Positions 14,259 through 20,700 of a stretch of 25,476 nucleotides of DNA are shown here, in pieces. Source of the DNA: a virus. Numbering within the stretch: position 1 is the first letter of the stretch; each line of letters starts with the position of its first letter. Location of the stretch: IMG/VR virus record IMGVR_UViG_3300044797_000169, positions 1-25,476 of that record. One strand, given 5' to 3'. The translations under genes and the position numbers were made by a program. The notes beneath the pieces were generated by a model. The model saw nothing but the letters and a program-made list of their open reading frames with translations. It ran no database searches and had not been told where the DNA came from.

Positions 14259-14614
14259 TATTGTTTAGGCTTTCGAGTGATGTAGTTGTGATAATCATCC
14301 GCACTCATCGCCATTTCTTTTTCAATGATTTCTTTAGTGCCTGGACGAAAGACCCGAACACCTTTGTACATCAAGTATGGAGTCTGCTGGTTGTTCACAA
14401 TAAATCCCCAGAGACGATCTGAGATTGTAACTGACTTCTTTTCCATTCTCGCTCTTGCAAGCTCAACCTCAAACTCATGAGCATCATCAACGATCTTCTC
14501 TACTTCTTTGACCGGAATCAAAGTTACTGGATCAACAGCAGATGGAAGCGTTGGCAAATTACCCATCATCTCTGCGTTGGATAAATCGGATTGTTCTGGC
14601 GCGTGCTTTTTCAT
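14258..14614 (-). CDS. hypothetical 118-aa protein in the packaging operon
   Basis: This is an unrecognised 118-aa protein. Residues about 30-65 form a charged helix (VKEVEKIVDDAHEFEVELARARM), followed by SVTISDRLWGFIVNNQQTPYLMYKGVRVFRPGTKEII, which looks strand-rich, and a basic end (YITRKPKQ). The ATG overlaps the terminase nuclease stop by four bases and the stop overlaps the next ATG by one. No catalytic motif is visible. The tight coupling to terminase nuclease and portal suggests a packaging or head-assembly role, but the sequence itself does not reveal it. Confidence 0.6.
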   Translation of the reverse strand: MKKHAPEQSDLSNAEMMGNLPTLPSAVDPVTLIPVKEVEKIVDDAHEFEVELARARMEKKSVTISDRLWGFIVNNQQTPYLMYKGVRVFRPGTKEIIEKEMAMSADDYHNYITRKPKQ

Positions 14615-15390
14615 TGGTTAAGTCTCCCTAATTTCTTTTGGATGTACCAACGCTCGTAATCAGGATGACCAGGATGCGGTGGAGTTTTCCATTGTTGTTC
14701 TTTTTCTGGTGCGTACTGAATGTATTCAATTGAAGCTAGCGCATCAATAAGGTCATCGTACTTGCCTCGAGGGAACGACAAGAGTTCAAGCTCGAGGTCA
14801 ACAAGTCCTCTCGCAAGAAATAGATGACCCCACTCGAGGCGTGGTACGAGACTTTGTATGCGCATTTGTTTAGTCTTATTATTTGGCGGCGTAATACCCT
14901 TAATAGGCATAATCTTGCCACGCCTTCGCATCTCCTCATCCAAGAAATATAAAAGCGCCTTTTGGTAGGCCACGTCTTCAATTCCAATAACGTTAGGTGC
15001 CAATTGGTCGTAGAGTTTAAAAACCAAATCGATGAGCTCAGTCGGTCGAACTCTGTGGCGTCGAGCGTATTCGACATACCAGTTCTTATCGTGATCCAGA
15101 TGCACAACCACGACGCCCGTATAATCTGAGGTATCAGATTCAGATAAAGCAGGATCAATGAAGACGAAGGTTGTTTTGTTTTTAGGTAAACTTTCATAAT
15201 ATCTAAACCAATTCTTTTTAAAAGTTTGTAGCTCAATCGGAATCACTTCATTTAAATACTGATTCGCAAAAAGATAAGACCCCATGGATCTCTTCTGCTC
15301 TTCTAAAAACTCATGACTTAATTTTTGAGGGAACAATAATGAGCCGTCAGCTCTTATTGCTTTCTCAATGACTACTTCCCATTTGTTCAT
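14611..15390 (-). CDS. terL: terminase large subunit, nuclease domain (separate gene)
   Basis: This 259-aa protein is the C-terminal half of a phage large terminase. Residues 1-51 (NKWEVVIEKAIRADGSLLFP ... LEEQKRSMGSYLFANQYL) are the linker that normally follows the ATPase coupling motif. Residues 75-220 are the RNase H-like nuclease: FVFIDPALSESDTSDYTG (D79), VIGIEDVAYQ (E138) and KYDDLIDALAS (D212, D213, D216) supply the acidic metal-binding residues. It would cut concatemeric DNA during packaging. It has its own GGAG seven bases before the ATG, and its start overlaps the methyltransferase stop. The ATPase half is a separate gene about 2.3 kb upstream (17697-18359). No intein or intron-like extra sequence is seen at its start. 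Confidence 0.9.
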   Translation of the reverse strand: MNKWEVVIEKAIRADGSLLFPQKLSHEFLEEQKRSMGSYLFANQYLNEVIPIELQTFKKNWFRYYESLPKNKTTFVFIDPALSESDTSDYTGVVVVHLDHDKNWYVEYARRHRVRPTELIDLVFKLYDQLAPNVIGIEDVAYQKALLYFLDEEMRRRGKIMPIKGITPPNNKTKQMRIQSLVPRLEWGHLFLARGLVDLELELLSFPRGKYDDLIDALASIEYIQYAPEKEQQWKTPPHPGHPDYERWYIQKKLGRLNQ

Positions 15391-17350: not shown

Positions 17351-17697
17351 GCAAGATTTGTATCGAAGCTCGTAAAGTTAAATGTCATAGCAATCGTCGA
17401 AGATGAGCCAGTCGAATAAACATAAAAACAAGCAGGACCGTTCCAACTGAAAATTTCGCTGGCACCAAGAGGATAACCGCCAACACCAACGCCTGTAGCG
17501 CCGCCAACTGAAATACCAGTGACTGATTGAGGACCAATCGAAACTAAAGAGCTGATTCCAACACCAATAGTTTTAAGCTGACCTCCCCAAGATCCGGTCG
17601 GCGTTCTTACAACAGTTGGGAATATGCTAGCTCCCAAAGGACCAAGAGCAAATTGTGTAGCACCTATGATTCTTGAGTCGACTTGAGATACTGACAT
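17347..17697 (-). CDS. hypothetical 116-aa strand-rich protein, structural-like
   Basis: This 116-aa protein is rich in Gly, Ser, Thr and Val with alternating hydrophobic patterns (KTIGVGISSLVSIGPQSVTGISVGGATGVGVGG), and ends in SSTIAMTFNFTSFDTNLA. It has no enzyme motif and looks like a compact beta-sheet virion protein, similar in composition to the decoration-like genes at 7780-8700 though not clearly homologous by eye. Its ATG shares a base with the terminase ATPase stop (TAATG). Finding a structural-type gene inside a terminase split is unusual. A role as head decoration or accessory is a guess. Confidence 0.58.
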   Translation of the reverse strand: MSVSQVDSRIIGATQFALGPLGASIFPTVVRTPTGSWGGQLKTIGVGISSLVSIGPQSVTGISVGGATGVGVGGYPLGASEIFSWNGPACFYVYSTGSSSTIAMTFNFTSFDTNLA

Positions 17698-18359
17698 TAA
17701 GATTCCCCCTGAATGTTCACTTCGTTATCTAGGATGTGAGCTATTATATCTCTTTCAGAATAGCGTGTTCCAATTACAACGTAAGTCCCACCAGGTTCCA
17801 ATATTGACTGGTTATATCTGTAATGTGCAATAACTTTTTCACTATTCTCTGGAGTGTTCTGGTTGTTTGGTGAACAATAATCATCCCCAATAATAGTTTG
17901 ATAATGCTGCCCGACCTTCGTCGCACCTATTCCAGACACTGTTATCGATGCCTCTTTATATGGCTTTGTTCTTTGCTTAATGATGATCTCAGACTCATTC
18001 CAAGTCTCACCTTTGAACTCACCGTAAAGCTTAACCAATAGCGGTGAGCTGATATGAAGCTTGATCTCTCTTAAGAACGTTTTGCTGTTCGAATACAGCT
18101 CCGAGTCTAAAAGTATTCTGTCGTTCGGATCGTTGATCAATCGCCATATTGGATATGCCACACAACCAATAGAAGACTTCAAAGTCCCACGAGGCATGTT
18201 GATTAGTTTTCTAGTTGAACCAGACTCTAACGCAGCTAACATTTTGCCGTGAGTTTCTTGATTTACGTCTTTCATTTTTAAGATGTCGTGAGCTAAGAAA
18301 AATAAAGATTCACGACCGTAGTCTGCGATTGCATCGATGCCTGCTTGGATCTCATTCAT
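17697..18359 (-). CDS. terL: terminase large subunit, ATPase domain (separate gene)
   Basis: This 220-aa protein is the N-terminal motor half of a phage large terminase. The Walker A loop is the terminase type, NMPRGTLKSS (K61). The Walker B with catalytic acids is TIIGDDY (about 155-161). The coupling motif is VVIGTRYSERD (about 194-204). Other expected elements are HGKMLAALESG (Q-motif side) and RILLDSELYSNSKTFL. The protein ends only about 16 residues after the coupling motif, exactly where the nuclease gene (14611-15390) begins in an intact terminase. So the two genes together give one complete enzyme of about 480 aa with nothing missing. It overlaps the small terminase gene at its start and the next gene by one base at its end. 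Confidence 0.88.
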   Translation of the reverse strand: MNEIQAGIDAIADYGRESLFFLAHDILKMKDVNQETHGKMLAALESGSTRKLINMPRGTLKSSIGCVAYPIWRLINDPNDRILLDSELYSNSKTFLREIKLHISSPLLVKLYGEFKGETWNESEIIIKQRTKPYKEASITVSGIGATKVGQHYQTIIGDDYCSPNNQNTPENSEKVIAHYRYNQSILEPGGTYVVIGTRYSERDIIAHILDNEVNIQGES

Positions 18360-19946: not shown

Positions 19947-20159
19947 ATGAGTTTTCTAGCCAGTTTACTTGCTGATCTTTTATCTGCCCTCTTTTCTGCT
20001 TTGACTGGTTTTATCTCACAATTTGTTAAACTCAAACAGCAAGAAAACCAAGTGATCACCCAGGCTCAAACTGACACCTCCGTCTTGCAAGGAGCAAAAA
20101 CCGATGCCGATAAAGCCATGGCTGCTCGCAAACTTAGCGACGATACTTTTTCTAATTAG
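19947..20159 (+). CDS. probable inner-membrane spanin-like (Rz-type) or holin-like protein
   Basis: This is a 70-aa protein starting at the ATG at 19947, with GGAGG about ten bases upstream; a TTG at 19932 lies before the ribosome site and is unlikely. It has an N-terminal hydrophobic segment (FLASLLADLLSALFSALTGF, residues 3-22) and then a charged helical tail (KLKQQENQVITQAQ...). The last 56 bases overlap, in another frame, the start of a lipoprotein gene. This is the architecture of an i-spanin/o-spanin (Rz/Rz1) pair, which join the inner and outer membranes for the last step of Gram-negative lysis. It is shorter than most Rz proteins, so a small holin remains possible. Confidence 0.58.
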   Translation: MSFLASLLADLLSALFSALTGFISQFVKLKQQENQVITQAQTDTSVLQGAKTDADKAMAARKLSDDTFSN

Positions 20160-20400
20160 CGGATGCGCATCGCTTCCTCCGTTACCTAGTGGTAATTTTT
20201 GCGTGGTTTCAGTTGCGTCGAATGGCGCCGTTTGTGTTCCGATTTCAGTTGTAGCTTCAGCGAGTGCGTCGCCAACGAGTGTATTTGTTCCATTTGTCCA
20301 AATGGATAATTATGTCACAGTTAGCCCGACGACTTGGGCAGCTATTCAAAGCTATATAGGCCAACTCAAAATTATTGCCCAACAACAATGTGGTAATTAA
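20104..20400 (+). CDS. lipoprotein, probable outer-membrane spanin (Rz1-like)
   Basis: This 98-aa protein has a lipoprotein signal peptide: KPWLLANLATILFLISGCAS, with the lipobox LISGC and modified Cys near residue 21. After it comes a Pro-containing segment (SLPPLPSG), then a Ser/Val-rich mature part ending IGQLKIIAQQQCGN. Its start lies inside the end of the preceding membrane-protein gene in another frame, as Rz1 genes do in Rz. At about 78 mature residues it is longer than a classic Rz1, and two further Cys (FCVV, AVCV) could form a disulphide. The lipoprotein call is strong; the spanin role comes from the arrangement. Confidence 0.65.
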   Translation: MPIKPWLLANLATILFLISGCASLPPLPSGNFCVVSVASNGAVCVPISVVASASASPTSVFVPFVQMDNYVTVSPTTWAAIQSYIGQLKIIAQQQCGN

Positions 20401-20700
20401 TCTCATAATGGAATGGCAGTCGGTAGTAACCGAGGATCGCTTAGTTGGCTAAAACTGGTTGCAACCCAACAAGCTGAAATAACCAAGATCGGCACCTAGT
20501 AGCGTAACGAACTACACATTCATTGAGCCGAGGCGTGGAAGCTGTGGACGGATTAAGCGCATCACAAAACCGATGGCAGTGTATCAGTCCCTTGAGACAC
20601 GCAGATAAGACAATAATCCGTATCTAAAAATGTGGGTAATCGCTCCATGGAGTTGAACCATTAAGATACATAGCCAAGTCGCGATTGGCCGGCTCATCTC
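20401..20700 (+). ncRNA. candidate structured noncoding RNA
   Basis: No gene is seen in the 380 bases between the lipoprotein stop and the next start. The plus strand folds into several helices that I could pair by eye. They are TCGGT/ACCGA with loop AGTA (20420-20433), GTTGG/CCAAC (20444-20470), GTAG/CTAC (20499-20515), GTGT-TCA/TGA-ACAC with one mismatch (20579-20600), CTCCATGGAG (20643-20652), and AATCGC/GCGATT (20638-20686). An 8-bp helix ACGGATTA/TAATCCGT (20548-20555 with 20614-20621) encloses the GTGT hairpin. Base content is more GC-rich than the flanking AT-rich ends. I do not recognise a known class. Transcription direction is assumed from the flanking plus-strand genes. Confidence 0.38.

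Follow-up and report, generated by a model that had tools for sequence, protein, structure and literature searches.

The window, by which we mean the whole 25,476-nucleotide stretch of viral DNA analysed here (positions 1 to 25,476 of IMG/VR record IMGVR_UViG_3300044797_000169), is free of genes between 20401 and 20700, as the first-pass annotation had noted. The longest internal open reading frames are of 28-37 aa and the stretch has no coding signal, which speaks against the pair of undetected short genes that the annotation had named as an alternative. Directly before the stretch, 19947-20400 on the plus strand is taken up by an inner and an outer spanin-like gene that overlap. The second has a lipobox, and neither PHROGs nor Pfam gave a match for either gene. 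Elsewhere in the window the large terminase is apparently split into an ATPase part and a nuclease part (17697-18359 and 14611-15390, both on the minus strand), with other genes between them and a weak Terminase_6C match for the nuclease part. The same split is seen in locus L001 (8530-9252 and 9580-10365). A DNA methylase gene (PF01555; 15387-16919, minus strand), with a profile match that stretches across nearly 500 residues, has an HNH endonuclease frame (PF13392; 15583-16011, minus strand) nested within it in another frame, a layout that looks as if a homing-endonuclease insertion were being read through.

From the sequence of the gene-free stretch the first-pass annotation had proposed a single unclassified structured RNA of about 300 bases. 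The features on which it relied are all present:

20420-20433, plus strand: hairpin TCGGT-AGTA-ACCGA
20579 and 20594: GTGTATC/GAGACAC, with one mismatch
20548 and 20614: long-range helix ACGGATTA/TAATCCGT
20620 and 20664: GTATCT/AGATAC, around CTCCATGGAG (20643)
20413 and 20573: two copies of the repeat word ATGGCAGT

They do not exceed what is expected by chance. Of dinucleotide shuffles of the stretch, 30% contain a perfect 8-bp helix and 41% a repeated 8-mer, while the folding energy of the 300 bases is average relative to shuffles (z +0.30 for the plus strand and -0.96 for the minus strand). Considered on its own evidence, without relatives, the stretch would not convince.

Relatives were sought by several routes. 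An alignment of the terminase led to 41 related phage loci, one of which, L013, has a 29-base intergenic match to the window: GTTGG-CTAAAACTGGTTGCAA-CCCAAC in the window corresponds to GTGGG-CTAAAACTGGTGCAAT-CCCAC in L013, so that the loop is kept while the stem is changed yet still pairs. The loop was matched 30 times in 2.9 million viral contigs, and the matches fell into two sets. Eight of them (L013, L046, L049, L051, L065, L066, L069 and L070) have a pairing stem and a downstream GGCAC and lie outside long open reading frames, whereas nearly all the others lie inside them. L065 shares its contig with L003, which is the closest relative by terminase. Relaxed loop patterns gave no further true viral members, and most loop-pattern matches in other records were discarded as lying inside coding sequence. 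Amongst 84,980 prokaryote genomes there was one real match, L093, on a Bdellovibrionales chromosome. The covariance model R1, built from a seed alignment (A3) that was hand-trimmed to the structure and whose counts lean towards it, added two more genomes of the same class, L097 and L098. Matches of a further model, R2, to L102, L103 and L115 were chance.

A pattern for a hairpin in the 3′ half, TAGCCARN{0,1}GTCGCGNYTGGCC, identified five other phage records (L119, L120, L121, L123 and L124). These share with the window GCGTGG...GAGACACGC, which was absent from the search pattern, and like window positions 20524-20696 they have GCGTGGRAAGCTGTGG, a variable stretch and then CTNGAGACACGC. The same motif appears in L003 and L070 when these are extended upstream, with CGGAAAGCGRTGAT...TGGAACCG as its bacterial counterpart. 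These records overturned an early view of the 3′ half as an insertion that had no relatives. Besides the window, one or both of the domains described below are found in 13 uncultured-phage records and three Bdellovibrionia genomes. Because nearly all of these 16 records came from searches with short conserved words, the apparent conservation of the words is in part an effect of ascertainment and is overstated, and more diverged members will have been missed. With model R3, three of 359 Bdellovibrionota genomes were positive, all of them of the class of L093. No real member was found in 398 genomes of a phylum sample centred on a Cellvibrionaceae MAG or in 195 genomes of the Lentisphaera phylum, with strict filters that can miss members; similarity searches of 50,697 phage records and of plasmid records found no member, and a search of an annotated phage collection with the window stretch gave no match. 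A portal-protein comparison gave a weak host signal, with 24% and 21% identity in two of the 359 Bdellovibrionota genomes. One of the three bacterial genomes carrying the RNA also contains a phage-type portal gene (L113; G081 contig C4, 33421-35025) with seven in-frame TAG codons, suggesting a phage that may read TAG as an amino acid.

The comparison makes it nearly certain that 20407-20696 on the plus strand holds two adjacent real RNAs. The 5′ one, RNA-1, has the following features:

20407-20524, plus strand: RNA-1, pseudoknot-type, of which 20418-20523 was found by model R2
20407-20415 with 20517-20524, plus strand: outer helix AATGGAATG/CATTCATT, with one bulge, weak and seen in this sequence only
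20420-20433, plus strand: helix P2, TCGGT/ACCGA, which aligns with the bacterial AGTCGG...ACCGAG
20435-20438 with 20487-20490, plus strand: helix P3, GATC/GATC, with hand-aligned counterparts in relatives
20439-20448 with 20466-20474, plus strand: helix P4, GCTT-A-GTTGG/CCAAC-AAGC, covarying in alignment A4
20449-20465, plus strand: conserved loop CTAAAACTGGTTGCAAC, near-invariant in all pseudoknot members
20457-20462 with 20491-20496, plus strand: pseudoknot of GGT(T)GC with GGCACC, compensatory change in L097
20499-20515, plus strand: 3′ hairpin GTAG/CTAC, put at the P6 position by R2, without the GTCGCG loop

The alignment A4 comprises L093, L097, L098, L065 and L070, aligned with MAFFT without structure and left untrimmed. 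In columns picked for counting after inspection, its five sequences give 16 double-changed cells against 5.7 in shuffles, supporting P4, P6 and the pseudoknot. Within P4 the column pair 48-78 is UA, CG, AU or GC, and the pseudoknot of L097 is changed on both sides (GGCGC/GGCGCC as against GGTGC/GGCACC). The hand-aligned counterparts of P3 are CTTA/TAGG, CTTG/CAGG, CTCT/AGGG, GGAG/CTCC and GTCG/CGGC. R2 was built from the five A4 sequences with the window left out, and it finds window positions 20418-20523 at 52 bits (E 2.5e-11 in 600 kb), while its best match outside the family reaches only 17 bits; by our estimate some 30 bits of scores of this kind come from the loop used to find members, so the independent part is the rest of the structure. 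The window has the loop CTAAAACTGG-GCAA in a covarying hairpin together with its GGCAC partner under a model that had not seen it. RNA-1 is a pseudoknot domain in which the conserved loop (CTAAAACTGG-T-GCAA) is predicted to pair with GGCACC.

The 3′ one, RNA-2, has these features:

20524-20696, plus strand: RNA-2, cloverleaf-type, conserved with L119, L120, L121, L123, L124, L003, L070/L116, L093, L097 and L098
20524-20530 with 20690-20696, plus strand: closing helix P1, TGAGCCG/CGGCTCA, pairing kept despite differing sequence
20533-20537 with 20598-20602, plus strand: arm P2, GCGTG/CACGC, conserved motif GCGTGGRAAGCTGTGG...CTNGAGACACGC
within 20533-20602, plus strand: interior of P2, with internal loop GAAGCT/TTGAGA and inner helix GGAC/GTCC
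20620-20625 with 20664-20669, plus strand: middle helix GTATCT/AGATAC around CTCCATGGAG, suggestive only
20673-20689, plus strand: hairpin P6, GCCAA-GTCGCGA-TTGGC, directly before the second P1 strand

For RNA-2 the 11 sequences of alignment A7, also from MAFFT, untrimmed and without a structure guide, were counted at P1, P2 and P6. In these columns, again picked after inspection, 89.9% of cells are paired compared with 72.5% in shuffles and 31-42% in slid controls, and there are 42 double-changed cells compared with 12.0 and 7-13 respectively; none of 500 shuffles reached either the observed paired percentage or the double-change count. The sequence of P1 is different in nearly every member, with both-sided changes at six of its seven pairs, as illustrated by GAGAGAT/ATCTCTC in L003, GTGAGTG/CACTCAC in L120, GTAAAGG/CCTTTAC in L121 and, in the bacteria, AAAGATA/TATCTTT in L093 and CTAAAAAGAT/ATCTTTTTAG in L098. 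P2 is changed in a compensatory manner in L070 (GCATG/CATGC). All cells of P6 are paired in the 11 sequences, with double changes at three pairs and an invariant TCGCG in the loop, and the hairpin at 20673-20689 was also picked up unprompted by R2. Covarying P1, P2 and P6 with the GTCGCG loop are all seen in A7, where the window scores 101.8 bits, the sequence itself being in the training set. This shows a predicted fold with a 7-bp P1, an arm P2 whose internal loop is conserved, and a P6 that has the loop GTCGCG. A middle arm is likely, though the evidence for its helix is suggestive only: L120, L121 and L123 have helices of different sequence that stop 0-1 base before TAGCC, with single chance probabilities of 0.003 to 0.13, and two further members have none.

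In the light of these alignments the call of an unclassified structured RNA was right, with strong covariation in relatives, no coding signal and no match in Rfam 15 behind it, while the reasons given were only partly so, since the listed features are at chance level and it is the relatives that decide. The compensatory changes that had been proposed as a check are there, in two adjacent RNAs rather than one. TCGGT/ACCGA turns out to be P2 of RNA-1, and GTATCT/AGATAC has the suggestive counterparts in three relatives just described. About half of the named helices differ from those that are conserved. The arm GCGTG/CACGC, which has covariation behind it, is in competition with GTGTATC/GAGACAC and would be crossed by ACGGATTA/TAATCCGT. 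The most important helices had been overlooked, namely TGAGCCG/CGGCTCA, the GCCAA/TTGGC hairpin, whose loop is GTCGCGA, and the GTTGG/CCAAC hairpin, which has the conserved loop and the pseudoknot.

The two domains are arranged differently amongst the members. In the closest phage relative L003, in L070 and in the three bacteria the pseudoknot domain is situated between P2 and P6 of one RNA, whereas in the window it precedes P1 as a separate adjacent RNA. It was looked for and not found in L119, L120, L121, L123 and L124, and it occurs alone, in most cases with its own closing helix, in L013, L046, L049, L051, L066 and L069. The window would seem to have the two domains split into separate neighbours, which may work together.

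The neighbouring genes differ in every locus, and those downstream have no visible common function. L003, L046, L093 and L097 are each followed by a gene on the opposite strand. The 133-aa frame listed for L098, which overlaps the RNA and a terminator-like hairpin, is unlikely to be a gene; both L097 and L098 have terminator-like hairpins of their own right after the RNA. A same-strand gene is close downstream in nine phage loci (L119, L120, L121, L124, L013, L051, L066, L069 and the window). On inspection of the sequence, M15 peptidase-like endolysin genes are near the RNA in L120 (oriented 993-1433) and L123 (oriented 2008-2424). The surroundings hint at a possible link of the RNA to lysis modules.

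What these elements might do can be weighed against the same observations. Chance complementarity in a spacer, with no functional RNA, would agree with the chance-level folding energy and first-pass features, but unless the alignments are wrong it is refuted by the covariation, and also by the match of the held-out model, and it is barely credible. Phage origins and packaging sites can contain hairpins, and the L051 copy lies just before its terminase gene, so a replication origin or packaging site acting as DNA might be considered; against this, G-U pairs are kept, both in the pseudoknot and at P3, where five of ten sequences have U-G at the column pair 16-60, and the bacterial copies lie in ordinary chromosomal surroundings, making such an element very improbable. 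A self-cleaving ribozyme or RNA-processing element, with the invariant loop and pseudoknot as candidate catalytic core, would account for the compact pseudoknotted core with its invariant unpaired bases and for single copies scattered in varied positions, as with phage ribozymes. We regard it as improbable given that no Rfam ribozyme family matches and there is no mark of a cleavage site.

A cis-acting leader (riboswitch, attenuator or antiterminator), in which the following gene is under the control of the fold and a U-rich tract after P1, deserves more weight but still seems unlikely. The nine loci with a close same-strand gene and the U-rich tracts after P1 in most cloverleaf members would suit it, and RNA-1 resembles ligand-binding pseudoknots in having a conserved A-rich loop in the pseudoknot. 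On the other hand, related genes are not consistently downstream and no common function is visible amongst them, L003, L046, L093, L097 and, on inspection, L098 are without a same-strand downstream gene, and no Rfam riboswitch matches. The differing neighbours, the lack of a same-strand gene in the bacteria and two phages, and the terminator-like hairpins of L097 and L098 make action in trans likelier than a riboswitch, and RNA-1 and RNA-2 are probably free-standing noncoding RNAs of this kind. Unpaired segments that are invariant are, as a rule, signs of a site for binding or catalysis. Here they suggest a bound partner: CTAAAAC beside the pseudoknot, the GRAAGCT/TGGAGA internal loop and GTCGCG could together make a surface to which a factor of the host or phage binds. 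That the RNA binds or sequesters a host protein or RNA-protein machine is a possibility we would put forward with some doubt. A more far-reaching and less certain reading is a new cloverleaf and pseudoknot class of phages and Bdellovibrionia, derived from an ancestral RNA whose two domains have split in the window phage and might target a host machine in trans. The position of the window copies directly behind lysis genes would point to a role late in infection.

Neither the window nor any of the 11 other members searched has a gathering-score match amongst the 4,227 families of Rfam 15. Matches at lax E values were chance snoRNA- and SECIS-like matches and an unrelated tRNA, and a supposed motif resemblance to 23S rRNA was dropped, lax Rfam searches giving no LSU rRNA match. 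Within the scope of Rfam 15 and a limited open-access text search, the RNA family is previously undescribed; the statement of novelty applies to the family. It is uncommon for a structured RNA family to show strong covariation and be missing from Rfam, and this one links phages with Bdellovibrio-like bacteria. The coordinates are exact, and three bacterial loci and a covariance model are available, a direct starting point for structure probing, pull-downs and assays of cleavage.

Amongst known systems, the phi29-type packaging RNA (Phage_pRNA) is a phage-encoded structured RNA of similar size, from which the present RNAs differ in that the window phage uses a terminase and Rfam gives no match. 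H-type pseudoknot riboswitches such as SAM-II and the preQ1 classes have a hairpin loop that pairs with a downstream strand and an A-rich conserved loop. RNA-1 is similar on both counts, but the present RNAs have no common, and sometimes no, downstream gene, and again no Rfam match. ARAGORN and Rfam identified neither tRNA nor tmRNA at the RNAs, bearing out the first-pass annotation, which had also recognised no known ribozyme. T-loop sequence, CCA end and tag frame are missing, yet RNA-2 does resemble tRNA and tmRNA in its closing stem of about 7 bp directly after a 3′ 5-bp hairpin with a 7-8-nt loop, its internal arms giving a cloverleaf-like plan. ROOL and GOLLD are large phage and prophage RNAs with Rfam profiles, often near tRNA islands and in the case of GOLLD often >800 nt (PMC12286853). 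The Rfam searches gave no match to the covariance model of either, ARAGORN found no tRNA genes in the window or in most of the phage loci examined, and the present RNAs, which have no Rfam match, are only about 110-230 nt. What they share with ROOL and GOLLD is that they are noncoding, structured and phage-borne, and of unknown function.
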